Positions 41,394-56,357 of a DNA stretch of 64,000 nt are shown in pieces (the first letter of the stretch is position 1; every line of letters starts with the position of its first letter). Below the pieces are notes generated by a model, which was not told where the DNA came from, ran no database searches, and was given only the letters and a program-made list of their open reading frames with translations. Location: NCBI RefSeq assembly GCF_031181385.1, contig NZ_JAPSKV010000005.1:124001-188000 (forward strand). The letters are read 5' to 3'. The stretch is from Fredinandcohnia onubensis (lineage in GTDB: Bacteria > Bacillota > Bacilli > Bacillales > Bacillaceae_L). A program made the translations under genes and the position numbers.

Positions 41394-42110
41394 CTATTTG
41401 TCGAAGGATAAAAAATCATAAGGAAGAAGGATTTTATCATCCAATGTATAAAGCTCTTCCGTTTTCGTTGATTCCTTTAGTTTGTTCATTTCTCTTTGAA
41501 GTTTTTCCATCTTTTTATCTAATTGCGCTGCTGTTATAGCTGCTTCCTTTAATTCATCCTTCATATGCTGCGGGATTTCTTTATTGTATTTATAGTAAAT
41601 TTTGTGCTCCAAGCTTGCCCAGAAATCCATGGCGATGGTTCGAATTTGAATTTCAACAAAAATATGCTCTTCACGGTCGGACATAAAAATTGGAATTTGC
41701 ACAATTAAATGTAGACTTTGATACCCATTTGGTTTTGGATTTTTAATGTAATCCTTGCACTCGATTAAGGTAACGTCCTTTTGCTTTTGCAGCATTTCAC
41801 TAATTTTATAAATATCGGAAATATAGGCGCATGTTATCCGAATCCCCGCAATGTCCCGGATATTTTCTGTGATGGACTCAAAACTATAGTCATATCCCTT
41901 GCGTTGGATTTTGTTCAATATACTTTCTGGTGATTTCAGTCGAGATGATACATGCTCAATTGGGTTGTAATCATGTATATATTTAAACTCCTGCTTTAAA
42001 ATATTGATCTTAGTCATCATTTCTTCAAGCGCAAATTTGTATGACATCATAAATCGTATTAGTTCTACTTTCATATCTTTAAACTGATTCATTCTAATTC
42101 CTATAGACAT
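41394..42110 (-). CDS. Small alarmone synthetase (RelP/YwaC-like GTP pyrophosphokinase)
   Basis: A 238-residue RelA/SpoT-type synthetase domain without hydrolase, TGS or ACT parts. Key segments: NPIEHVSSRLKSPESI, DIAGIRITCAYISDIYKI, NPKPNGYQSLHLIVQIP and EIQIRTIAMDFWASLEHKIYYK, which carry the catalytic Glu and pyrophosphate-site residues. It makes (p)ppGpp from GTP/GDP and ATP. It resembles B. subtilis YwaC more than YjbM. GGAG stands 7 nt before the ATG. Co-transcription with a TetR regulator would link alarmone production to a chemical signal. Confidence 0.88.
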   Translation of the reverse strand: MSIGIRMNQFKDMKVELIRFMMSYKFALEEMMTKINILKQEFKYIHDYNPIEHVSSRLKSPESILNKIQRKGYDYSFESITENIRDIAGIRITCAYISDIYKISEMLQKQKDVTLIECKDYIKNPKPNGYQSLHLIVQIPIFMSDREEHIFVEIQIRTIAMDFWASLEHKIYYKYNKEIPQHMKDELKEAAITAAQLDKKMEKLQREMNKLKESTKTEELYTLDDKILLPYDFLSFDK

Positions 42111-42135
42111 AATTCGTCTCCTTTAATGTGAAAAT

Positions 42136-42319
42136 CAAATACACACCGTGTATTTGCTGCCCAGATTTTTTCGAGCTTGCTCGAAAACTTTCCTTTGAAA
42201 ATCTGTGGCATCCGCCGGAGGCTTAACTTTATTCAGTCAAAGTTCAACATAAACTAAATGGATACTTATTAGCCATTAAACCAACCTCTAGAAAAATTAA
42301 AGCTACCTGAATAAAGTTA
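42136..42319 (-). repeat. Structured dispersed element, copy 1 (in the leader of the alarmone synthetase operon)
   Basis: Minus-strand copy of an element also present at 53380-53512. It has three stem-loops: CTGAATAAAGTTA/TAACTTTATTCAG at 42319-42224 with a long loop in between; CAGATTTT/AAAATCTG enclosing TTTTCGAGCAAGCTCGAAAA; and CAAATACAC/GTGTATTTG at the end. The conserved linker reads GCCTCCGGCGGATGCCACAG. It ends 25 bp before the synthetase start codon, in the sense orientation. Confidence 0.8.
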
Positions 42320-42425
42320 TTGGTCTTTTACAAATCGAAGCTTTGACACCAAGCGATTGCAGTTTTTTTGCAAGCTTTCGTAGTTTCATTTGGTTCAATT
42401 CATTTTTAGGTCCTGTCTTTATCAT
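42303..42425 (-). CDS. Possible small basic peptide, 40 residues, perhaps a truncated gene
   Basis: From ATG 42425 the minus strand encodes 40 residues beginning MIKTGPKNELNQMKLRKLAK and ending in PITLFR. GAGGTGA lies 9 nt upstream, a good ribosome site. The last codons fall in the first arm of the dispersed element, so an original longer gene may have been cut by that element. The start codon overlaps the innermost TetR-type palindrome. I do not recognise the sequence; it is rich in Lys and may be a chance frame. Confidence 0.3.
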   Translation of the reverse strand: MIKTGPKNELNQMKLRKLAKKLQSLGVKASICKRPITLFR

Positions 42426-42498
42426 GACATCATGTCACCTCACAATTTCATTCTAGATGACACCATGTCACAAGTCAATTAAATATGACACATTGTCA
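42425..42498. promoter_or_regulatory. Three TGACA-N3-TGTCA palindromic operators
   Basis: TGACATCATGTCA (42425-42437), TGACACCATGTCA (42458-42470) and TGACACATTGTCA (42486-42498) are 13-bp palindromes spaced 33 and 28 bp apart. They lie upstream of the alarmone synthetase-tetR operon and are likely bound by that TetR protein. Confidence 0.7.
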
Positions 42499-42523
42499 CA
42501 CTATGTTCACATCCATAGAAAAA

Positions 42524-42547
42524 GCCTTTCTCATTTTAGAGAAAGGC
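42524..42547 (-). terminator. Terminator after the MFS gene
   Basis: GCCTTTCTC/GAGAAAGGC stem with a 6-nt loop; on the minus strand TTTTTC follows. Confidence 0.85.
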
Positions 42548-42555
42548 CTTAACAG

Positions 42556-43857
42556 TTACAAAGCAGTACTTGTTTTTTCCACAACAGGATTCTGTTCATT
42601 CAATTCAGGGTGAGCTTTTCTCACGACACTTGGTCTTGCTAGAACAAGGACCACTCCGATTAAAATGACCGCTGTTGTGATGAGAATATATTGACCTGGT
42701 AATACATCGTATAAATAGCCAAATATTATCATCCCCAGTGGCATTAAAGCTACTGCCATCGATTCTAAAATTGAAAACACGCGCCCCTTAAAATCATCAT
42801 CAATCATTTTTTGCATCATGACTTGAAGCGGTGTATTGACAACGATAATCATTAATCCATTAATAAACATCGCAACAAAATAATACACAAACACTGACCA
42901 ATACGATAATGAAATCATTAATGGAACAGCCATCGCTCCCATAATGACCCCTAACCCAATAATTCCACGTTTTGAAACAAGGAATGGATACTTCACTTCT
43001 TTTCGAATCGAGAAGTAAATCGAGAATAACAGCATTCCAATGGCAAAGGCCCCTTGCGTGAAGCCGAAATGTTCTGAAGCCAACTTTAATTTTTCAATCA
43101 ATATAAACGAGTAACCGACCTCAAAAGCTCCAAAAAGGAAGTTGATGACTAATGCCATCCAGATCATCGTCATCAGAACCTGTTTTGTTTTTAAATAGGT
43201 AATACCAGCTTTAATGCTTTCCCACATGGTCTCCTTCTGTTCCGTTTCATCTTTCACCTTGCGATTAGAGAACAGGTTGAAGTTCATGGTAGATTCAAGT
43301 AAAACAGCAATGACAGAAGCTACAATGTACATCCCTAAAAATAATTCCATCGATACTGTACCATATAACAGTCCACCCACTGCTGGGCTACCGATGGCCG
43401 CAAAAGATATTGAAATTTGATTAAGTGACATTGCTTTTTGAATACGTTTTTCATCCACCAAACCGGTAATCGAAGATGTGAAGGTTACACCAGTAAATGA
43501 AGTTGCGATCGATAATACGACAGTTGTTGTGAATATCGCAATCAGGGATAAACCATAAGTTAGACTAAAAACGAGTAATCCAACAATCGCTAATGTCGTA
43601 ACGAGTTGTGAGATAATCACAATTTTTTTCCGAGAATATTTGTCTGCCGCATAACCTGCTAGCGGCGCTACAAGTGCCCTCGGTAAAAGATTACAGATTA
43701 GATTTGTTGCAAAGCTTGTTGCTGATCCTGTTAGTTGAAGTATATAAAAACTGATTGCAAATGCGTATACTTGTGCGCCGAATGAGGAAATGATTTTACT
43801 AATTGTGAACGTAAACAAATGATAAGATGCCCTTTTAAGCTTTTGTTGTTCATTCAT
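42556..43857 (-). CDS. MFS transporter (drug or metabolite exporter)
   Basis: A 433-residue protein with about 12 membrane helices. It has the MFS loop motif GYAADKYSRKKIVI between helices 2 and 3 and is of the MdtG/YfmO-like exporter type. Start ATG 43857 is chosen because GGAGGAAT is 6-7 nt upstream; an earlier frame to 43905 overlaps the operator palindrome. It is divergent from the XRE-TPR regulator, and two palindromes in the gap suggest direct control by that regulator. The substrate is unknown. Confidence 0.9.
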   Translation of the reverse strand: MNEQQKLKRASYHLFTFTISKIISSFGAQVYAFAISFYILQLTGSATSFATNLICNLLPRALVAPLAGYAADKYSRKKIVIISQLVTTLAIVGLLVFSLTYGLSLIAIFTTTVVLSIATSFTGVTFTSSITGLVDEKRIQKAMSLNQISISFAAIGSPAVGGLLYGTVSMELFLGMYIVASVIAVLLESTMNFNLFSNRKVKDETEQKETMWESIKAGITYLKTKQVLMTMIWMALVINFLFGAFEVGYSFILIEKLKLASEHFGFTQGAFAIGMLLFSIYFSIRKEVKYPFLVSKRGIIGLGVIMGAMAVPLMISLSYWSVFVYYFVAMFINGLMIIVVNTPLQVMMQKMIDDDFKGRVFSILESMAVALMPLGMIIFGYLYDVLPGQYILITTAVILIGVVLVLARPSVVRKAHPELNEQNPVVEKTSTAL

Positions 43858-43881
43858 GCTAATTCCTCCAATTTTGGAAAA

Positions 43882-43952
43882 GTTTAATTTAATTAAACAA
43901 ATCATATCATCATATTACTTTCTTTTCAACAAAAAGTTTAATATAATTAAAC
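43882..43952. promoter_or_regulatory. Two palindromic operators between the MFS and XRE-TPR genes
   Basis: GTTTAATTTAATTAAAC (43882-43898, perfect) and GTTTAATATAATTAAAC (43936-43952, two central differences) stand 54 bp apart start to start, one near each divergent gene. They are probably sites of the XRE-TPR protein. Confidence 0.7.
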
Positions 43953-43986
43953 AAAATAATAAAAATAGGGAGAGTGCCTATTTCTT

Positions 43987-45225
43987 ATGCTAGGTGAACG
44001 CATACGTAAATTACGCAAACAAAAGAAATTAACATTAGAAGAACTTGCAGGAACAAAACTGACAAAAGGCATGCTTAGCCTAATTGAAAATAACAAAGCA
44101 AATCCATCAATGGAGAGCTTAACCTACATTGCAGAGAGATTGGAAGTGGATTTGTCACAGCTTTTAAATGAATTCAATTTCGATGAGCTACAAGACATAT
44201 TGGATCAAGCGGAAAAAGTTTTCATTCTGGATTCTAGCCAGAATCCTGATAAATACAAAAAACTTATTCCACTTATTGAACCGGTCGTTCCTCAACTTAA
44301 TCAGGGATATGTAGCTGCAAGATTATTGGAATTGTATGGTTATAGTCTGTATTGGGAAAAGCAAGGGGATTGGAAACAGCCACTTGAGCAGGCTGCAAAC
44401 TTATATGACCAAATGAATGTTACCCCAAAAAGAACGAGTATTGGCGTTTTTCGTGGGCTTGTCCATTTCTTGGATTATAATTATGATGAAGCATTAGCGA
44501 CCATCCTCCAAGAGCGAAAGGAAATTGAAAAGAATCATGTCTTTATTGATCCAGTTTCTAGGTTAGACCTTGATTATCAAGAAGCAATCCTGTACTTCGC
44601 AGTCGGGGATATTGAATCAGCCAAGCGTGTGATGGATGAAGCGATTGCCTTCTCACAAAAGAATAAAATATTCTATTTAATTGATGATTTATACAGGCTT
44701 GCAGCTGCATATGCCATGATGGCTGAAGACCGTGAATTACATGAATACTATTTGACTAAGATAAAGCAGTATGCTGAGTTTTCTGATGATAAAATGTCGA
44801 AGATGACATCTCAGCTTTTTTATATTGAATCACTTAATTCGGTTAAGCAGGATTACAAAACAGCCCTTGAAATCGTAAATAACTATTTATCAGATCCGGA
44901 ATTTAATCATCAATTCGACGAGTGGTTTTATCTTGAAAAAGGAAAAGCCTTACGTGGACTTGGGCATTACGAAGAGGCGATTGAATATTTTGATCAGGTT
45001 GAGATTCCTGAGTACCATCGCCACCCTTTCGATCTTTCACAATTTTATTTGAAAGAAACCTACAAAGCACTCTGCTGTGTCGAGCTCGGTAAGCTTGATG
45101 AAGCTATATCTGCAGCAAAGAAGGCAGTAGAATTATTTGACCACCTGCCCGATTCGCCTTATAAAGAATATAGTTTGAAAACGTATGAACAAATAAAAGA
45201 AAAAACAACTCGTTCTGAAAGTTAA
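43987..45225 (+). CDS. XRE-type helix-turn-helix regulator with TPR domain (RRNPP-like)
   Basis: A 412-residue protein. Residues 4-60 are an XRE helix-turn-helix (RIRKLRKQKKLTLEELAGTK; LTKGMLSLIENNKANPSMES). The remaining 340 residues are helical repeats of TPR type (LGHYEEAIEYFDQVEIP; LGKLDEAISAAKKAVELFD). The layout matches peptide-sensing PlcR/NprR-like regulators, yet no small secreted peptide gene follows it. It is divergent from an MFS exporter with shared palindromes in the gap. It may sense the exported compound or a peptide made elsewhere. Confidence 0.88.
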   Translation: MLGERIRKLRKQKKLTLEELAGTKLTKGMLSLIENNKANPSMESLTYIAERLEVDLSQLLNEFNFDELQDILDQAEKVFILDSSQNPDKYKKLIPLIEPVVPQLNQGYVAARLLELYGYSLYWEKQGDWKQPLEQAANLYDQMNVTPKRTSIGVFRGLVHFLDYNYDEALATILQERKEIEKNHVFIDPVSRLDLDYQEAILYFAVGDIESAKRVMDEAIAFSQKNKIFYLIDDLYRLAAAYAMMAEDRELHEYYLTKIKQYAEFSDDKMSKMTSQLFYIESLNSVKQDYKTALEIVNNYLSDPEFNHQFDEWFYLEKGKALRGLGHYEEAIEYFDQVEIPEYHRHPFDLSQFYLKETYKALCCVELGKLDEAISAAKKAVELFDHLPDSPYKEYSLKTYEQIKEKTTRSES

Positions 45226-45238
45226 CGATAACAAAAAG

Positions 45239-45278
45239 AGGTATTTTTCTTTGCCGCGAGCCGGTTAGAAAAATACCT
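45239..45278 (+). terminator. Bidirectional terminator between the XRE-TPR gene and the coat gene
   Basis: A 12-bp stem AGGTATTTTTCT/AGAAAAATACCT with a T-run after it on the plus strand and A-rich flank before it, so it can stop both convergent transcripts. Confidence 0.85.
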
Positions 45279-45286
45279 TTTTTATA

Positions 45287-45583
45287 TTAGTCTGTTAATT
45301 CTAAAGCTGTTTTCGTAATCGTGAGGTCTGTTTGGAGCTGTTCACTTAGATCGCTTGGGTAATACATCCCTTTTTCAATCATGTAATTTGAGATATTTGC
45401 ATGTGTTTCAACTGCATGCCGAAGCTGCTCACGCAATACTTGTCTTACTTTTGGTGTAGATGCTTCTGTTATTGCAAAGGCTAAGTTTCGCACCCCAGCT
45501 TTTGCAGAGATAAGAAAATCAGTTGCAATGACCTGATCGGTCATCCCACCCATTCCCATTAATTTCTTAAAAATATCATTCAT
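45287..45583 (-). CDS. CotF-family spore coat protein (YraD-like)
   Basis: A 98-residue Coat F domain protein (TDFLISAKAGVRNLAFAITE; REQLRHAVETHANISNYMIE; KGMYYPSDL). These proteins are made in the mother cell and deposited in the spore coat. It is encoded after, and overlapping by 8 bp, the small gene at 45576. The length matches YraD of B. subtilis. A paralogous pair in reverse orientation lies at 45937-46523. Confidence 0.85.
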   Translation of the reverse strand: MNDIFKKLMGMGGMTDQVIATDFLISAKAGVRNLAFAITEASTPKVRQVLREQLRHAVETHANISNYMIEKGMYYPSDLSEQLQTDLTITKTALELTD

Positions 45584-45785
45584 TGTCTTTGCTCCTATCT
45601 GTAATTAATTGCTGAAGTTGGGTGATGAACCTCCTCCCAGAATCAACATCATTCGTTAAGATACTTTTTAACTGAGGGTCTTGGACAAGTCCACTCATCG
45701 TAAATGCTTTTGTCACACATAAATTTTTAAACGTCAGTAGTTCATGTACCTCAAGGGTTTCATGAAGCCCCATGTATTGTGTCAT
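45576..45785 (-). CDS. Small spore coat-associated protein (YraE-like)
   Basis: A 69-residue protein (GLHETLEVHELLTFKNLCVT) that resembles the small companions of CotF-like proteins in the yra region. Its core HETLEVHELLTFK is nearly the same as HETMETHEMINFK of the divergent gene at 45937, so the two are paralogues. It is probably made with the downstream CotF-like protein during sporulation. The exact role is unknown. Confidence 0.78.
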   Translation of the reverse strand: MTQYMGLHETLEVHELLTFKNLCVTKAFTMSGLVQDPQLKSILTNDVDSGRRFITQLQQLITDRSKDNE

Positions 45786-45936
45786 TATAGCTCTCCTTTC
45801 TTATGTCACCTATTGTTAGATTACCTTGGGCGTAGGTTCTTATTCCACTCTACCTTCATACTAATTTTGGAAATCAATTTCCCACCCATTTTTGCCGAAA
45901 ATAGGTCATCCTAAAGTTAAAAAGGAGTGACTTTTT

Positions 45937-46146
45937 ATGCATCAAAACACACTCGGTTTCCACGAAACCATGGAAACTCACGAAATGATCAATTTTAAAA
46001 CAATATGCTTAGTACGTTCAAAGCTTATGCAAGGCATTTGCTTTGATAATGACTTAAAATCCTTGATGGAAAAGGATGTCCACCAAACGATGGCAGCCAT
46101 AGAAGAACTAAAGGAACTCTATGAAAAAGCACGTACAAATTCTTAA
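45937..46146 (+). CDS. Small spore coat-associated protein (YraG-like)
   Basis: A 69-residue protein, paralogue of the minus-strand gene at 45576 (shared HETMETHEMINFKTICLVRS pattern). AAAGGAG lies 8-9 nt before the ATG. It is followed by a CotF-like gene and the adhB-like gene on the same strand, as in the B. subtilis yraG-yraF-adhB order. Likely a sporulation-specific coat or coat-assembly component. Confidence 0.78.
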   Translation: MHQNTLGFHETMETHEMINFKTICLVRSKLMQGICFDNDLKSLMEKDVHQTMAAIEELKELYEKARTNS

Positions 46147-46157
46147 AGAAGGTGATC

Positions 46158-46523
46158 ATGTTGAATCAGGATTATTTAGATCCAAAATACGCTGAAGGAA
46201 TGCCTAAGATGGCCGATGCCTCTTTTGCTATGGACTTTCTGCTTTCAGTTAAAACAGGGATTCGTTACTATTCAGTTGCATTAACAGAGACGGCCAGTCA
46301 CGAGTTACGCGAAGCACTCTATCGCCAAATGGAACAAGCGCTAGATTTACACGAAGAACTATCTGATTTGATGATTCGTAAAGGCTGGTTATACCCAAAT
46401 GATGTTGAAAAGCAAATTGAATTAGACCTTAAGTCAGCAGATATGGCCCTTTCCATTGCTCGAATGGAGCTTTTCCCAATTGACACTGACAGACGGGGTA
46501 CATTTGCAACACCGAATAAATAA
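46158..46523 (+). CDS. CotF-family spore coat protein (YraF-like)
   Basis: A Coat F domain protein of about 121 residues (AMDFLLSVKTGIRYYSVALT; LYRQMEQALDLHEELSDLMI; RKGWLYPNDVEKQ). Paralogue of the gene at 45287. I use the ATG at 46158, with AAGGTGAT directly upstream. It lies between the small YraG-like gene and the dehydrogenase gene, suggesting one sporulation operon. Confidence 0.85.
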   Translation: MLNQDYLDPKYAEGMPKMADASFAMDFLLSVKTGIRYYSVALTETASHELREALYRQMEQALDLHEELSDLMIRKGWLYPNDVEKQIELDLKSADMALSIARMELFPIDTDRRGTFATPNK

Positions 46524-46542
46524 AGGGTAGGAGGAAATTCAC

Positions 46543-47682
46543 ATGAAAGCCGTTACATATCAGGGCATAAAAGACGTTGCCGTAAAAGAAGTCGAAGATC
46601 CTAAAATCCAAAAAGCGGATGATATTATCGTGAAGGTAACAAGTTCCGCCATATGTGGATCTGATTTGCACTTAATCCATGGAATGATACCCAACACTCC
46701 AGAAAATTATATAATTGGACATGAGCCGATGGGAATCGTAGAAGAAGTGGGTCCCGAAGTGACCAAGATAAAAAAAGGCGATCGGGTGATCGTTCCCTTT
46801 AACATGGCTTGTGGAAAGTGTTGGTATTGTACACATGACTTTTCAAGTCAATGTGACAATGCAAATGAAAATGGGGATATGGGTGGTTTTTTAGGGTATT
46901 CTGAAACAACTGGTGGATTTGCTGGTGGGCAAGCGGAATATTTACGGGTCCCTTACGGTGATTTCACCCCGTTTAAAGTTCCGGAGGATAGCGAATTAGA
47001 AGATGAGCAACTTGTTTTGCTCGCAGATGTTTCCTCTACTGCTTACTGGTCTGTTGAAAATGCGGGAGTCAAAAATGGAGATACCGTCATTGTTCTTGGC
47101 TGTGGACCTGTTGGACTTCTTGTGCAAAAATTCGCATGGATGTTTGGTGCCAAAAGGGTTATAGCCGTCGACTATATCGATTACAGACTACAGCATGCAA
47201 AAAAGACGAATAATGTTGAAATCGTTAATTTTGAGAGTGTAGACAATGTTGGAAACCATCTTAAAGAAATTACGCAAGGTGGAGCGGATGTTGTCATTGA
47301 CTGTGTAGGAATGGATGGTAAAATGTCACCGCTAGAATTTTTGGCAACAGGTCTGAAACTCCATGGAGGCTCAATGGGTGCGATTGTTACCGCGGCACAG
47401 GCTGTCCGTAAATGTGGCACGATTCAGCTCACAGGAGTATACGGAATGAGATACAATGCCTTTCCTTTAGGGGACATTTTTCAACGAAACGTTCAATTGA
47501 AAATGGGACAAGCACATGTTATTCCCATCATTCCTAAACTGCATGACCTCATTTCTGAAGGTAAATTTGATCCAAGAGACATCATTACTCATGTATTACC
47601 TTTAGAACAAGCAAAACACGGCTATGAAGTCTTTGATACCAAGACAGAAGATTGTATAAAAGTTGTGTTGAAACCACATTAA
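46543..47682 (+). CDS. Zinc-dependent alcohol dehydrogenase (AdhB-like)
   Basis: A 379-residue MDR alcohol dehydrogenase, class III/formaldehyde dehydrogenase-like. It has catalytic zinc residues in CGSDLHLIHG and GHEPMGIVEEVG, the four structural-zinc cysteines in CGKCWYCTHDFSSQC, and the NAD motif VLGCGPVGLL. The length and position after CotF-like genes match B. subtilis AdhB in the yra operon. It would oxidise an alcohol or aldehyde with NAD+; why it is linked to spore coat genes is unknown. AGGAGG is 9 nt before the ATG. Confidence 0.9.
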   Translation: MKAVTYQGIKDVAVKEVEDPKIQKADDIIVKVTSSAICGSDLHLIHGMIPNTPENYIIGHEPMGIVEEVGPEVTKIKKGDRVIVPFNMACGKCWYCTHDFSSQCDNANENGDMGGFLGYSETTGGFAGGQAEYLRVPYGDFTPFKVPEDSELEDEQLVLLADVSSTAYWSVENAGVKNGDTVIVLGCGPVGLLVQKFAWMFGAKRVIAVDYIDYRLQHAKKTNNVEIVNFESVDNVGNHLKEITQGGADVVIDCVGMDGKMSPLEFLATGLKLHGGSMGAIVTAAQAVRKCGTIQLTGVYGMRYNAFPLGDIFQRNVQLKMGQAHVIPIIPKLHDLISEGKFDPRDIITHVLPLEQAKHGYEVFDTKTEDCIKVVLKPH

Positions 47683-47693
47683 TATGCGTAGCC

Positions 47694-47722
47694 AAAGACT
47701 AGGATTCCCCCCTAGTCTTTTT
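47694..47722 (+). terminator. Terminator after the adhB-like gene
   Basis: A perfect 10-bp stem AAAGACTAGG/CCTAGTCTTT with a 7-nt loop and trailing T residues on the plus strand. Confidence 0.85.
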
Positions 47723-47827
47723 ACTTTGATTTATAAATCCTCAGGAAATAAAAAGTACTTTTATTTAATCCCTAATTTTTGATATTATACATAGAGAAAA
47801 TAGCACGAATAGAAACAGGTGAATAAA

Positions 47828-48733
47828 TTGGATTATCAAGTTTTACTTTATTACAAATACATCGATATTGATGACCCGCAGGCTTTTAGAGACCAACATT
47901 TTGAATTATGTTCTTCCCTTGGATTGAGAGGTAGAATTCTTGTTGCAACAGAGGGTATCAATGGTACTGTGTCAGGTACGGTTGAACAGACGGAAAGATA
48001 CATGGAATTTATGAGAAGCGATGCTCGGTTTTCGGATATGGTTTTCAAAATTGAGAAAAGCGAAGAACATGCTTTTAAAAAGCTCAAAATAAAAGTAAAA
48101 CCAGAAATTGTTAATTTAAGTCTTGATGAGGACTTAAATCCCAATCAAATTACTGGTAAGCATCTTTCACCAAAGGAATTCCTTGAAACGTTGCAACAAG
48201 ACGATGTCATCATTCTTGATGCGCGGAATACGTATGAGTACGATCTTGGTCACTTTAGAGGTGCCATCCGACCAGATATCGAAACCTTCCGCGAGCTGCC
48301 AAAATGGGTCGAAGAAAATTTAAGCGAGCATAAGGATAAGAAAATATTAACCTATTGTACAGGTGGAATTCGTTGTGAAAAATTCTCTGGGTTCCTTGTA
48401 AACGAAGGATTCAAGGATGTTTCTCAGCTTGAGGGTGGCATCATTACGTACGGATATGATCCAGAGGTAAAAGGTGCACTTTGGGACGGAAAATGCTATG
48501 TATTTGATGAACGCATTTCTGTACCAGTTAACCGAACTGGTGAAGAAACAGTGGTTGGAAAATGTCATCACTGTGGGAAACCAGAAGAACGTTATGTAAA
48601 ATGCGGAAATCCAGAGTGCAACAAGCATCTCCTACTATGTGAGGACTGCGAACATGAACACTACAGATCTTGTAGCCAGGACTGCAAAGACCACCCACAT
48701 AATCGCTATGTGAAGGAACATCAATTGGCGTAA
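47828..48733 (+). CDS. trhO: tRNA uridine(34) hydroxylase TrhO (rhodanese-related)
   Basis: About 301 residues: an N-terminal YceA-type domain ([19 protein letters not shown]), a rhodanese domain with the active-site Cys in [11 protein letters not shown], and a C-terminal cysteine-rich zinc-binding tail ([19 protein letters not shown]). TrhO uses oxygen to make 5-hydroxyuridine at tRNA position 34. I use the TTG at 47828 because AGGTGA lies 6 nt upstream; a GTG at 47819 falls inside that element. Single gene with its own terminator. Confidence 0.92.
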
Positions 48734-48735
48734 AG

Positions 48736-48766
48736 AAAACTGCTCAGAGCAAATCTGAGCAGTTTT
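48736..48766 (+). terminator. Bidirectional terminator after trhO
   Basis: AACTGCTCAGA/TCTGAGCAGTT, an 11-bp perfect stem with a 5-nt loop and T-run on the plus strand; it also lies at the end of the convergent gene at 48766. Confidence 0.88.
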
Positions 48767-49434
48767 TATTCTTTTTGTGCAAATCTCGCAATCTCCTCCG
48801 AAGCATAAACCACTTTCCCCTGTTCTTTTTCCAGAGCCACTTTGTACATCGCTTTTGCTAATGTTTTTCCTTCGATCGCTCTATACTTTTGGAGGGGGCC
48901 AGTAAATATAAACTTTAAGCCTTTAAATAAGAAAGCAGCCATTTCTTCTCCAAGTCGAAATTCGCCTCTGTATCCAAGTAGAAGTGACGGACGAAAGATG
49001 GACAGTTGTTCGAAGTTAAGTTTACGAACCTTTTCTTCAAGTTCCCCCTTCATTCTTGGATAAAAAAGCTTAGAGTTACGGTCTGCATTCATTGAACTAA
49101 CAACTAAATAATGTCTTGCGCCTGCCTCTTTTGCAATCCGACCAATGTCAACTGGATAATCGACATCTATTTTGTACATTGCTGCTTGGGTCTTCGCCTT
49201 TTTGATGGTAGTGCCTAAACAAACGAACACATCATTCACCGCGAAATATTGTTTATACTCATTAAGACGATCGAAATCGACGATTACTTCTATTAATTTT
49301 GGATGATTCATCTTAAGTGGGTTTCGAACTAGAGCATACACCTGCTTATATTCAGAACCCTCTAGCAATTTATGTAGTAGTTCATTTCCAATTAAACCAG
49401 TTGCCCCAGCAATAAGTGCTGTCTTCTCTTCCAC
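48766..49434 (-). CDS. NAD(P)H-binding oxidoreductase (HTATIP2/NAD-epimerase-like)
   Basis: A 222-residue atypical SDR with the N-terminal AGATGLIGNELLHKLL nucleotide motif, VFVCLGTTIKKA, and YLVVSSMNAD. The YxxxK pair is seen as YPRMKGELE. Such proteins resemble HTATIP2 and bacterial YbjS/YtbQ-type reductases, whose substrates are mostly unknown. It stands alone, convergent with trhO. Confidence 0.83.
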   Translation of the reverse strand: MEEKTALIAGATGLIGNELLHKLLEGSEYKQVYALVRNPLKMNHPKLIEVIVDFDRLNEYKQYFAVNDVFVCLGTTIKKAKTQAAMYKIDVDYPVDIGRIAKEAGARHYLVVSSMNADRNSKLFYPRMKGELEEKVRKLNFEQLSIFRPSLLLGYRGEFRLGEEMAAFLFKGLKFIFTGPLQKYRAIEGKTLAKAMYKVALEKEQGKVVYASEEIARFAQKE

Positions 49435-49732
49435 TTTGCCAACTTCCTTTCACATAAAAACGCAATTTTCCCTTCATAAGTATACCCATTTTTATTTTAT
49501 TTGGCATGTTACTAATCCGTTGTAGGACTTTCTTATGAAAAAAGTATAGTTTTATAGAGTTGATAATGGTAAAAATAGGGAATAAGTGCCATATTTCATT
49601 CTTTTTCATCTAATTTTACCAAAATTTTCACTCAATTAGACACAAAAGTAGTTTCATCTGTATTATAATAGAATTAATAATATTATCTAACTATTTACTA
49701 TATTATAAATTTTTATTACTTGAAGGTGAATC

Positions 49733-50995
49733 ATGGAAATTACTAAGCACATTTTGTTTAACCTTGCATTATTAATCATTCTTTCATTTATAGGTTTAAT
49801 TTGGTTTGAACGAAAACGAAATCTTACCCTATCAAAGTGGGAAGCGTACATAGGGTTAGTTGTGCTTATTTTGACTTGCTTTATCGTTTCATATCAACCT
49901 ACCCCTTCTTACTATTTTGATCTTCGTCTTATTCCTGTATTAATAGGAGGACTTTATCTTGGAATTGGTCCGATCCTGTGTCTGACAGTTATTATTATAA
50001 GGGGGTTCTACGGCTTTAATTTTGGTTTTTACGCGACAATTGCCCTTTATCTTCCAATGGCTTTTTCTTTGTGGAAGCTATACCCATGGTTTTGGAAACA
50101 GAGTTCTAATAAGCGTGTGTGCATTTCCGTACTTTTGACCTTTATTGTATCCATCCTTACAGCGGCTGCACTTCAATTTTCGAAACCGAATGTAAATACT
50201 TTCGATGCTTGGTTTGCCTATTTACTCATTCCAGCGATTGGCTTAGGAATTTTGTCCTACTTAACTGAGTTTTTTCGCAATAATATCCAATTGCGACAAA
50301 CCATTGTAAAATCTGAGAAGCTCCACGCAGTCGAACAAATGGGAGCGGCGATTTCTCATGAAATACGAAATCCTTTAACGGCAGCAATGGGATTTGTACA
50401 ATTGTTGATGTCTAATACTCTACCAAGACATAAGCAAAAAGAATATTTGACGATTATTAAAGAAGAGTTAGCTTCTGCTGAACATGTTATTCAAGAATAT
50501 CTAACTTTCTCTAAACCAGCATTAGATACGGTTGAAACCCTCCAAATCAAACGCGAATTGCAACAAGTAATATCTATTTTAAAGCCTACTGCAAACCAGC
50601 ACTCGGTTGAAGTCATTACGAATTTTTCTTTGATAGGCTCGATGGAAGGCGACCGACAAAAGTTCCATCAATGCTTTATCAACGTCATGAAAAATTCGAT
50701 TGAGGCAATGCCCGGTGGTGGAAGATTATATGTTGAAACCAGTTATGACCGATCAAATGTAAGCATTATCATCCGTGACACAGGAATGGGTATGACAAAA
50801 GAACAAATTGAGCGACTTGGTGAACCTTATTACTCTACTAAAGGGCCAAAAGGAACAGGTCTTGGAATGATGGTCGTTTATAGTATTGTAAAAGCAATGA
50901 AAGGTACGATCAAAGTATCAAGTTCTGTTGGCGAAGGAACTGAATTCACATTCCAATTTCCATCTGTCCTTTCCACAAATGAACCCCACGTCTGA
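49733..50995 (+). CDS. Membrane sensor histidine kinase (KinB-like)
   Basis: A 420-residue protein with about six N-terminal membrane helices (to residue 185), a HisKA domain with the phospho-acceptor in AAISHEIRNPLTAAMGF (near residue 207), and an HATPase domain with N box NVMKNSIEAMPGGG and G boxes DTGMGM and GTGLGMMV. There is no response regulator gene beside it, and no PAS domain. The layout matches KinB and related kinases feeding the sporulation phosphorelay. GAAGGTGA precedes the ATG. Its signal is unknown. Confidence 0.9.
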   Translation: MEITKHILFNLALLIILSFIGLIWFERKRNLTLSKWEAYIGLVVLILTCFIVSYQPTPSYYFDLRLIPVLIGGLYLGIGPILCLTVIIIRGFYGFNFGFYATIALYLPMAFSLWKLYPWFWKQSSNKRVCISVLLTFIVSILTAAALQFSKPNVNTFDAWFAYLLIPAIGLGILSYLTEFFRNNIQLRQTIVKSEKLHAVEQMGAAISHEIRNPLTAAMGFVQLLMSNTLPRHKQKEYLTIIKEELASAEHVIQEYLTFSKPALDTVETLQIKRELQQVISILKPTANQHSVEVITNFSLIGSMEGDRQKFHQCFINVMKNSIEAMPGGGRLYVETSYDRSNVSIIIRDTGMGMTKEQIERLGEPYYSTKGPKGTGLGMMVVYSIVKAMKGTIKVSSSVGEGTEFTFQFPSVLSTNEPHV

Positions 50996-51004
50996 AACGT
51001 GGGG
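50984..51004 (+). terminator. Hairpin over the kinase stop codon, probable terminator
   Basis: CCCCACGT/ACGTGGGG stem with a 5-nt loop that includes the TGA stop codon; followed by ATATTTTAT. It separates the kinase from the convergent gene at 51010. Confidence 0.65.
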
Positions 51005-51009
51005 ATATT

Positions 51010-51501
51010 TTATGCAAATTCTAAAAAAGCTTTTCCTCTTCTTTTTGCCCTAATATCTCGTTTTATCGCCTCGTAAACTTCCTGTTTTGTTCCTTTCACT
51101 TCTTGTTTTTGTTCTGTAAGCAGACAGTATAAAAGCTTTAAATCTAATGCAGTGGTATCCTTCATAACTTTCGTTTTAGAGGTATTATCAATAAATGCGA
51201 TAATCTCTAGCGGTGACCGAAACTCAGTATAATTCAGTTTTGTTCCCACCAAATCACCGTACTTTTCTTGAAATACTGAGTCAATCATATCAGAAAACGA
51301 TGGCTTGTTTTTCTTGCTAGAGCGTTTTTCTGTGTTAACTTTTACGATTTCATCCTCAAGCGTGACATCACCGAAACGATGAAAAATCTCAATTGCTTTC
51401 TCAATCTCTTTTACATCCTTTTTCGGTAGTTGAAGTGTTTCATAGATTGTTTTTAATTTTTCCAAATGATCTGCAACCTTTTGATAGGTAATGGTAGTCA
51501 T
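51010..51501 (-). CDS. Hypothetical protein, partner of the orphan ParA
   Basis: A 163-residue soluble protein that I do not recognise. It is charged and helical, with a Lys/Ser-rich middle (NTEKRSSKKNKPSFSDMIDS) and a basic C-terminus (KRDIRAKRRGKAF). It follows the ParA-like gene by 17 bp on the same strand. Partners of ParA ATPases are typically small DNA-binding or cargo proteins, and the basic tail could bind DNA. No ribbon-helix-helix or ParB motif is evident. Confidence 0.6.
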   Translation of the reverse strand: MTTITYQKVADHLEKLKTIYETLQLPKKDVKEIEKAIEIFHRFGDVTLEDEIVKVNTEKRSSKKNKPSFSDMIDSVFQEKYGDLVGTKLNYTEFRSPLEIIAFIDNTSKTKVMKDTTALDLKLLYCLLTEQKQEVKGTKQEVYEAIKRDIRAKRRGKAFLEFA

Positions 51502-51518
51502 CTATTTCCTTCCTCCAC

Positions 51519-52436
51519 TTATACGAGACTGTTAAAAATATTTGGTTCAATACAAAATAATATTTCATCCGTCAACGCTGCATATTCGGAACGTTTCTTT
51601 CCTTCTGCAGTATCACGTGCGATTGCTTCATAATGTTTGATTACCGTTTTGAAAAAATAATTTCCTTTTTCTAAATCTGAGAGTATAGAATCAATATCTG
51701 CTTCTTTTAATTCTATTTTTAAAGCATTTATCTCATGATCATTGTTAACATTTGTCTTTTTGAGCGTTTCAAATATACCTATTAATTTAGGTTTCTCCCC
51801 AAATAATAATTTTGCTACTACTGCTTTTTCATGATCTTCACAATGGGTTTTGTAAATTTTATCAACTATTTTGATATAATGGCTTACCCCGCGAATACTC
51901 ATCGTTTGAATAATCGTCGGAATTAAATAGTAATTTGATAGGAGAAATGCGCCTTGGGTAATCACATTGTTACTTGGTGGACAGTCAAATAATATATAAT
52001 CATACTTACTTTCAAGCTGAGTCGTTTGAAAAAATTGCTGGAGCACAACAAGGTCTTCAAAATCATCTCTTAATCGTGAAGCAAGTTGATCGAGGCCACC
52101 ATTTGTATAAAATAGATTAGATGGAATGAAGTGAATTTGTTCAGGGGTTTGTTTGATTAAATTTGTCGTATCAATGGAGTACCTCAGGTTAGGAAACTGT
52201 TTAAATTGCAACCACAAATCATAGACAAAGTTAAGGCTTTCATCGTTCTTAAGCTGTTCAAGGTCTCTGTCAATTCTAGTAAGACAAATTTCACTCAGTG
52301 AGCATTGTGGATCTAAATCAATTAGTAGCACTTTCTTTTTTGCTTCTACCAGGTGAAGCGCAATCTGATAAATACTCGTAGTCTTGCCAACTCCCCCTTT
52401 GTAATTACCAACAAAAATCTTGTTTCCTTGCGCCAA
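51519..52436 (-). CDS. ParA family ATPase (orphan, chromosomal)
   Basis: A 305-residue ParA/Soj-type ATPase with the deviant Walker A motif KGGVGKTTS (residues 13-21), IDLDPQCSLSE, and YDILFDCPPSNN. These proteins position plasmids, chromosomes or protein clusters through ATP-driven binding to DNA. It is not the chromosomal soj, since no parB, rsmG or replication genes are near. It is paired with a 163-residue protein of unknown type. It could be a plasmid-derived partition unit or a cargo-positioning ATPase. The TTG at 52436 has a GAGGGGG site. Confidence 0.87.
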   Translation of the reverse strand: MAQGNKIFVGNYKGGVGKTTSIYQIALHLVEAKKKVLLIDLDPQCSLSEICLTRIDRDLEQLKNDESLNFVYDLWLQFKQFPNLRYSIDTTNLIKQTPEQIHFIPSNLFYTNGGLDQLASRLRDDFEDLVVLQQFFQTTQLESKYDYILFDCPPSNNVITQGAFLLSNYYLIPTIIQTMSIRGVSHYIKIVDKIYKTHCEDHEKAVVAKLLFGEKPKLIGIFETLKKTNVNNDHEINALKIELKEADIDSILSDLEKGNYFFKTVIKHYEAIARDTAEGKKRSEYAALTDEILFCIEPNIFNSLV

Positions 52437-52605
52437 TTGTTTACCCCCTCAGAAGTATTCATTTTAATGTATTAACGAATGAGGAAAATATGCTTATTTT
52501 GCTTTATCATAACCTTTTCTTATATCAATTTATAAAATATTTATAATTTTCTTATACCAATTATTACTATATGATAAAAGTAACAATCGCAATGGAGGAG
52601 AAAAA

Positions 52606-53376
52606 ATGGACATTAAATCAGATGTTAAAAAACAATTTGGCCGCAGTGCTGCCTCTTATGTAACAAGTGAAGGTCATCGAAAAGGTGGAGATTTACAAAC
52701 ATTGGTTGCATTAGCCGATGCAACAGGCACAGAGCTAGCCCTTGATGTTGCTACGGGTGGCGGACATACTGCCAATGCCCTTGCTCCTCTTGTAGGAAAA
52801 GTTACAGCATTGGATCTAACACCAGAAATGTTAGCTGCTGCTGAGAAATTTATTAAAGGGAACGGCCATGAAAATGTTGAATTTGTTGAAGGCGATGCTG
52901 AAAAACTACCATTTTCAGATGAAACATTTGATATTGTATCTTGCCGGATCGCTCCTCACCATTTTCCTAACATTACTAGCTTCGTAAGTGAAGTATCACG
53001 TGTTTTAAAATCAGGTGGGCAGTTCTTGTTAGATGATAATGTTGTTCCAGAAAACAAGGAGTTTGATGAATTTTATAATACAGTCGAAAAAAGAAGAGAC
53101 TATAGTCATTTTCGAGCTTGGAAAAAGTCAGAATGGCTTCAAATGCTAGAAGATGAAGGTTTTGAAATCCAAGAACTTTATCGTTTTGACAAGCCTTTTG
53201 ATTTTGAAAGCTGGTGTAACCGTATGCATGTGTCAGACACCGAAAAGGCCGAACTGAACGACTATATGCTAAACTCTTCCGATAAAGTCAAAAAGAAGTT
53301 TCGTATCCAAATAGAAAATAATACGATCATCTCATTCCAAGGGGAAGCGGTTGTATTAAAGGCTACAAAACTCTAG
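52606..53376 (+). CDS. Class I SAM-dependent methyltransferase (UbiE/YodH-like)
   Basis: A 256-residue protein with SAM-binding motifs ALDVATGGGHTANALAPLVG (motif I), VTALDLTPEMLAAAEKFI, and FDIVSCRIAPHHFPNITSFV with LKSGGQFLLDDNV. It belongs to the methyltransferase_11 group. The acceptor is not known. GGAGG lies about 7 nt before the ATG. It is immediately followed by a dispersed structured element. Confidence 0.87.
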   Translation: MDIKSDVKKQFGRSAASYVTSEGHRKGGDLQTLVALADATGTELALDVATGGGHTANALAPLVGKVTALDLTPEMLAAAEKFIKGNGHENVEFVEGDAEKLPFSDETFDIVSCRIAPHHFPNITSFVSEVSRVLKSGGQFLLDDNVVPENKEFDEFYNTVEKRRDYSHFRAWKKSEWLQMLEDEGFEIQELYRFDKPFDFESWCNRMHVSDTEKAELNDYMLNSSDKVKKKFRIQIENNTIISFQGEAVVLKATKL

Positions 53377-53379
53377 GTT

Positions 53380-53512
53380 TTAACTTATTCAGCAGAAGTC
53401 TCTAACTTCCACTGAATAAGTTAAAGCCTCCGGCGGATGCCACAGATTTTCAAAGGTGATTTTTCGAGCAAGCACGAAAAAATCTGGGCACAAATACGCC
53501 AAAGCGCATTTG
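53380..53512 (+). repeat. Structured dispersed element, copy 2
   Basis: Plus-strand copy of the element at 42136-42319. First stem TTAACTTATTCAG/CTGAATAAGTTAA (13 bp, 19-nt loop); the shared linker GCCTCCGGCGGATGCCACAG; second stem CAGATTTT/AAAATCTG around a TTTTCGAGCAAGC hairpin; last stem CAAATACGC/GCGCATTTG. It lies 47 bp upstream of the broken nitronate monooxygenase gene, in the sense orientation. Confidence 0.8.
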
Positions 53513-53559
53513 ATGTGGGGGATTTCCTCCACTTTCTTTTCATTTAGGAGGTTTTCGTT

Positions 53560-53852
53560 TTGATTAATAATAAAGTTACTGAACTGTTAAAGATTGAACA
53601 CCCGATTATCCAAGCTCCGATGGCTAGTGGAATTACAACTTCAGAATTAGTTGCACTGTTCACGAAAATGACCTCCCGGAGTTTCCTATTCAGAATTCAC
53701 TGACCCAGGATATCCGAAAGGCATCAAGTTTACAGAATAATAAAGACTTCATGTCACTATGGTCTGGACAAAGCCCAAGATTAACAAAGCATCAAAGCGT
53801 TGCAAACTTAATAGAATCAATCATTTCAGAAGTGGAGCACATAAAATGTTAA
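53560..53852 (+). pseudogene. Nitronate monooxygenase remnant (internal deletion)
   Basis: AGGAGG then TTG at 53560 begins a good N-terminus (NNKVTELLKIEHPIIQAPMA followed by SGITTSELVA), typical of 2-nitropropane dioxygenase-type nitronate monooxygenases. After about 30 codons the frame shifts, and the last 60 codons of the same family follow in another frame (NDLPEFPIQNSLTQDIRKAS, later FMSLWSGQSPRL) up to TAA at 53850. More than half the gene between is missing. Family members oxidise nitronates with FMN. Confidence 0.8.
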
Positions 53853-56238: not shown

Positions 56239-56259
56239 GAATCGTCATACTTACACACA

Positions 56260-56345
56260 TTCCCTACGTTGGCATTATCCAAATCAGGTAAAGGGTCAAA
56301 GCTACATTTCGCTTACTCTCAGCCCACAAGTGTGAGCTCCCCTGC
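56260..56345 (-). ncRNA. TPP riboswitch (THI element)
   Basis: On the minus strand the aptamer shows GGGGAGCTC, the conserved GGGCTGAGAG, GACCCTTTACCTGATTTGG and ATAATGCCAACGTAGGGAA, all in order. Binding of thiamine pyrophosphate should favour the terminator and shut off thiMED. Confidence 0.96.
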
Positions 56346-56357
56346 TTTTATTCAATT

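Follow-up and report, generated by a model that had tools for sequence, protein, structure and literature searches.

Two structured elements in the window

The window is the whole stretch of DNA that was analyzed, 64,000 nucleotides from Fredinandcohnia onubensis (contig NZ_JAPSKV010000005.1, positions 124,001 to 188,000). It carries two copies of a structured element, which an earlier note, made from the letters alone, had described as sharing a linker and three stems. Both copies were found as described, and their 20-nt linkers are identical. The features, in window coordinates, are as follows.

42134..42319, minus strand: copy 1, whole element, with a long stem-1 loop and stem 2 in the mini-hairpin form; site empty in G006, G005 and other relatives
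42307..42318, minus strand: copy 1 stem 1, outer arm AACTTTATTCAG
42225..42236, minus strand: copy 1 stem 1, inner arm CTGAATAAAGTT
42203..42222, minus strand: copy 1 conserved linker
42136..42156, minus strand: copy 1 stem 3, CAAATACAC/GTGTATTTG as read on the element strand
53378..53514, plus strand: copy 2, whole element, with a short stem-1 loop and stem 2 in the mini-hairpin form; site empty in seven relatives
53382..53392, plus strand: copy 2 stem 1, first arm AACTTATTCAG
53412..53422, plus strand: copy 2 stem 1, second arm CTGAATAAGTT
53426..53445, plus strand: copy 2 conserved linker, its final bases being the start of stem 2
53439..53489, plus strand: copy 2 stem 2, GCC-CAGATTTT paired with AAAATCTG-GGC and enclosing a mini-hairpin
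53491..53512, plus strand: copy 2 stem 3, CAAATACGC/GCGCATTTG, the sixth pair being an A.C mismatch

A covariance model of the linker with stems 2 and 3 (R1), built from 58 sequences that included both window copies, recovered them at 42134-42222 on the minus strand (94 bits) and 53426-53514 on the plus strand (102 bits). The third-best match had an E value of 0.6, leaving only two good matches in the window. The matched differences noted earlier between the copies proved correct: an extra T in one stem-1 arm is met by an extra A in the other (AACTTTATTCAG/CTGAATAAAGTT against AACTTATTCAG/CTGAATAAGTT), and an A-T pair in stem 3 of one copy is G-C in the other, at the eighth pair. The sixth pair of copy 2 stem 3, an A.C mismatch on the plus strand, is a G.U wobble on the opposite strand.

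Each copy was said to end 25-47 bp before a start codon. An ATG at 42110 lies about 23 bp past copy 1 and a TTG at 53560 lies 45 bp past copy 2, but the gene following copy 2 (53560-53760) is decayed. Its counterpart in G006 (locus L201) is an ORF of 356 aa, of which approximately the first 32 residues are followed here by a shifted tail; we take it to resemble a nitronate monooxygenase. Copy 1 alters the last residues of a small ORF (42303-42425, minus strand), which has 39 aa in G006 and 40 aa here, where its stop codon comes from the element. The sole Rfam match at gathering level in the window was a TPP riboswitch upstream of thiamine genes (56243-56353, minus strand).

A repeat family with interchangeable parts

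Copies per genome were counted, as the earlier note had proposed. The genome holding the window (G000, 4.26 Mb) has 55 places matching the linker at up to three mismatches, against 0 for a reversed-pattern control, and all nine genomes of the genus carry linker copies (15-83 each). Locus L162, of F. onubensis, matches L044 of G000 at 96.8% identity over 3.7 kb, which places the host near Fredinandcohnia. In other genera of the family, one linker copy each was found in two of eight genomes. Across a sample of the class, with up to 11 candidates per genome scored under strict filters, R1 matched in at least 17 of 398 genomes (8 of 146 genera). Among the matches listed from named records, a separate set, are species of Lysinibacillus, Siminovitchia, Ureibacillus, Psychrobacillus, Sporosarcina and Bacillus. 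One record titled Arthrobacter beigongshangensis (L156) holds three element copies and an S-box riboswitch; the name is that of an actinobacterium, and these sequences probably come from a contaminating Bacillus of that same strain series. Carriage by plasmids, phages or viruses found no support: copy 2 had no blastn match among plasmids and phages, and an 18-base linker pattern was found in no viral contig. No description of the linker or the element was found in the open-licence PMC text searched.

For the anatomy of the family we assembled 217 distinct copies from G000, its relatives and named records; stem 3 could not be parsed in 13 of these, nor stem 1 in 15. As parsed, the element is 126-474 nt long (median 195) and runs from the stem-1 hairpin at one end through the linker and the stem-2 hairpin to the stem-3 hairpin at the other end. 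Stem 1, present in 202 of the 217, has a short loop of 6-22 nt in 55 copies, a long one of 40-80 nt in 139, and a longer one still in eight. The distance from linker to stem 3 falls at 40-49 nt in 140 copies (the mini-hairpin form) and at 100-109 nt in 41. Stem 2 itself comes in two interchangeable versions, CCACAG...CTGG and CCACGA...TCGG. The linker contains a small hairpin, GCC-TCC-GGC; when the minus strand of copy 2 is folded, the linker is predicted to pair with the apical part of stem 3. No complete ORF in the 190 copies parsed at both ends exceeded 90 aa, and the one of that length came from a copy with a misparsed far end; the element has no evident gene. A second repeat, around GTGAAACTTCAATCAGTGGG...CCACTGATTGTTAGTTGAACCAATC, is nested in or near elements in both orientations (L063, L104, L352, L353).

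Matched base changes maintain the fold

A kept fold, on which the earlier note had suggested that selection acts, was supported in alignment A1, which comprises 58 hand-chosen copies of the 217 over 99 columns. Its structure was set by hand, because RNAalifold gave a poor fold on a gappy MAFFT alignment of 135 short copies. Double changes were seen at 16 of 27 pairs against 6.9 in shuffles, none of 500 shuffles attained any of five covariation measures, and the signal was lost when partners were slid. The proportion of paired cells was 94.7%, against 87.6% in shuffles, a percentage that leans toward the structure since this was derived from the same sequences. Compensated variation was seen in stem 1 too, as in L047 (ACATTATT/AATAATGT). 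These results support a fold maintained by matched base changes in the stems. Both window copies folded better than 200 of 200 shuffles on either strand, with z scores of -5.6 for copy 2 and -8.5 for its complement, and of -4.2 for copy 1 and -4.7 for its complement.

Wobble pairs bear on which strand folds. A.C on the plus strand was found at the stem-3 wobble site in 30 of the 58 A1 copies, at two stem-1 sites in 22 and 8 among 83 sequences, and at a stem site of the nested Bacillaceae-1 module (described below) in 15 of 41. Together with the better fold of the copy 2 complement, these four high-count sites are no more than a hint of folding on the minus strand. Distinct stem-1 arms gave 55 A.C against 30 G.T, and A1 with the stem-3 pair removed showed no clear bias (20 A.C against 14 G.T). 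Against the hint, the energy of copy 1 is lower on the strand first read (-53.8 kcal/mol, against -45.1 on the complement), although z there is slightly weaker. The hint does agree with CsrA sites predicted on the reverse complement of Bacillaceae-1, whose discoverers, in the passages that treat it, left the strand open (PMC4333381).

Bacillaceae-1 as a nested module

The long version of stem 2 contains a core resembling Bacillaceae-1 (RF01690), in 41 of 41 long copies. The comparison with Rfam that the earlier note had suggested gave a divided answer: neither window copy matched RF01690 (gathering score 35 bits) in the Rfam scan, but long copies elsewhere did. In a scan of ten loci RF01690 matched five times, in four loci, and the shortened insert of L011 gave no match. 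By comparison with the linker places, 8 of the 12 RF01690 matches listed for G000 fall inside the element.

RF01690 also occurs apart from the element. It matched in 80 of 398 class genomes, against the at least 17 for R1, and among 30 RF01690 loci, one per genome, R1 matched in a single one, where RF01690 was inverted. In L361 it directly adjoins the upstream side of a 16S rRNA gene, and in L347 RNase P is close by; L352 and L353, on our reading, place it amid other sequence of repeat-like character, and by eye it lies between stem 1 and the linker in L141. RF01690 thus looks like an independent structured module able to insert into the element, of which it is an optional part, and the varied settings in L373, L361, L347, L352, L353 and L141 make it look mobile itself. 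Bacillaceae-1 is listed in the literature as an RNA that is not cis-regulatory (PMC2864571). What Rfam holds as a free-standing sRNA is here recast, in part, as a nested module of a mobile repeat, which bears on its unsettled strand.

Empty sites point to recent insertion

At the copy 1 site, seven relatives could be read: the element is absent from G006, G005, G009, G011, G012 and G008, and a short remnant is present in G010. None of the seven relatives that matched at the copy 2 site has the element there; G007 was unreadable at both window sites. We then tallied the 47 copies of G000 with parsable flanks, 45 by flank searches in G006 and G005 and the two window sites. Identities of 96.1% (G000-G006) and of 90.0% and 90.9% for the comparisons with G005 place G006 as sister and G005 as outgroup. 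G006 was empty at 32 sites, filled at 14 and unread at one, and G005 was empty at 34 and filled at 13. Both were empty at 25 of the 47 sites, the two window sites included; with this branching, these are most simply insertions in the G000 lineage. G006 alone shares a further nine sites with G000, and all three genomes are filled at five. Seven more sites hold the element in G000 and G005 but not in the sister G006, so copies must also be lost or inserted in parallel.

Junctions were measured at 24 of the 25 both-empty sites (L051 was left out), in place of an earlier exact-match scoring of 39 sites that was confounded by SNPs; among the 45 searched sites, L009, L020, L023, L034, L042, L051 and L052 yielded no empty-site junction. 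At 23 of these 24 sites the shared left flank stops -4 to +6 bases from the ACTTTATTC core (-12 at the remaining one), and the shared right flank starts -6 to +9 bases around TTTGA. Between the flanks, -2 to 8 target bases are involved, with a median of 2 lost; single losses of 1-2 bases are uncertain because the relatives differ by 4-10%. On our reading, insertions lie after the T-run of a terminator in L015, L017 and L018 and inside a terminator hairpin in L019 and L022.

The earlier note had named a plain MITE, with target duplications, as the outcome that would speak against its reading. The element is small, non-coding and present in many copies, as a classical MITE is, but no target-site duplication longer than 2 bases was found at the 24 sites (L044, outside the measured set, has a 4-base overlap). 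Nor are the ends inverted repeats of each other: the left end is AACTTTATTCAG, the right end is ATTTGAT past stem 3, and each forms a separate hairpin. In sum, the element inserted after the split from close relatives and turns over rapidly, with compensated stems, a modular build, small target losses and no duplicated target.

Interpretation and alternatives

We consider it probable that each copy is an insertion of one structure-defined family of non-autonomous mobile elements, BOX-like in behavior. A trans-acting enzyme would read a folded single strand and place it in intergenic DNA rich in T and A, in many cases at a terminator hairpin or within one. The stems may be retained because they are what this enzyme reads, or through recopying of one arm from its partner; effects on neighboring genes would be a by-product.

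BOX of Streptococcus pneumoniae is, in the parts of PMC3049150 that describe it, likewise small, folded, modular, intergenic and high in copy number, with no mobility gene of its own known, and is thought to be parasitic and non-autonomous. That description gives BOX terminal inverted repeats and makes it currently slow-moving, whereas here the ends are two separate hairpins and many insertions postdate the divergence from a relative of 96% identity. The repeats bcr1-bcr18, in the portions of two sources that cover them, are also intergenic and folded, bcr1-bcr3 being MITE-like and often in UTRs, but they are described for the Bacillus cereus group and the present family was found in other genera (PMC3446304, PMC2267715). 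To judge by the descriptions of BOX and bcr1-bcr18, the family is probably new.

A more far-reaching version, which we hold to be unlikely, is a fold-defined mobile class in which a single strand, RNA or DNA, would be moved by an undescribed enzyme, a terminal hairpin would partly pair with the target as guide or template, minus-strand hairpins with GGA loops could bind CsrA, and Bacillaceae-1 would be nested. The evidence for templating of the outer stem-1 bases by the target was weak: in the genus set, these bases covaried with the flank at two positions (p 0.011 and p 0.0016) and not at a third (p 0.45); outside the genus the first position gave p 0.27, and the altered arms of L045 were not found in its empty target.

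Elements derived from IS200/IS605 have palindromic ends that form hairpins, make no target duplication and may show a fork bias. Movement of the present element by such a Y1 transposase, in single-stranded DNA, would account for hairpins at both ends without target duplication. It would also fit G008, where 22 of 26 copies run in the direction of the replication fork; there, two orientation switch points were noticed first and the GC skew of 20 sampled stretches agreed afterwards (origin near 3.6 Mb, terminus near 1.1 Mb). Of 17 genomes in the bacterial family, 15 have a match to the transposase family PF01797; the two without one, G007 and G009, carry 30 and 53 copies of the element. At 20 PF01797 loci of the genus no ends were shared with the resident Y1 genes, and a copy lay nearby only at L242, beside a broken gene copy and not as flanking ends. 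Target bases are lost, too, where an IS200/IS605-derived element would insert without loss. We therefore rejected a Y1/RAYT partner and regard this origin as decidedly unlikely. Together, the failure of the Y1 family to track the copies and the lost bases weigh also against the enzyme side of the preferred mobile reading, and a precise HUH/Y1 reaction fits poorly.

The earlier note had put forward two readings, a leader RNA and a mobile element, small and palindromic. The empty sites uphold the second; the first, as a conserved regulator, is unsupported because positions turn over between close relatives. As cis-regulatory RNAs, the copies would act on the genes that follow them, for instance through linker CCUCC or UCCU loops pairing with downstream Shine-Dalgarno sequences. 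Orientation is in keeping with this: by a simple longest-ORF gene caller (51 copies in G000, 26 in G008), copies between parallel neighbors run in gene direction in 48 of 56 cases (31/36 in G000, 17/20 in G008), and many end 8-28 nt from a called start codon. The fold, moreover, is kept. Yet a conserved position before orthologous genes is missing, both relatives being empty at 25 of the 47 sites and filled at five; copies also occupy convergent places (5/51 in G000, 2/26 in G008), copy 2 stands upstream of a decayed gene, and the wobble hints point to the opposite strand. We judge a leader role very improbable. Selection by neighboring genes could underlie the orientation bias; the fork and the genes run the same way in too many cases for either to be singled out as its cause.

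There is little to recommend a retro-element, in which reverse transcription of a minus-strand RNA would take place at the target, the 3' end of the RNA lying at the left (stem-1) junction: the left-junction range, the wobble pairs favoring the minus strand and the weak covariation with the flank would suit it, but the left and right spreads overlap, the covariation failed at the third outer position and, outside the genus, at the first, and RVT_1 (PF00078) had no match in G000, G005 or G012, on which ground a reverse transcriptase partner was rejected. Integron attC sites have arms of the form RYYYAAC/GTTRRRY, which the stem-1 arms resemble, but the inserted unit here is without cassette boundaries, and attC was dismissed.

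Under the preferred reading, a family of non-autonomous mobile elements, Bacillales offer a system with recent activity, where the known empty sites of dozens of insertions can be compared, so that what moves BOX-like repeats becomes testable. One Lachnospiraceae MAG record, in which contamination is possible, has the same linker adjoining tmRNA, with stems of very different sequence that still pair.
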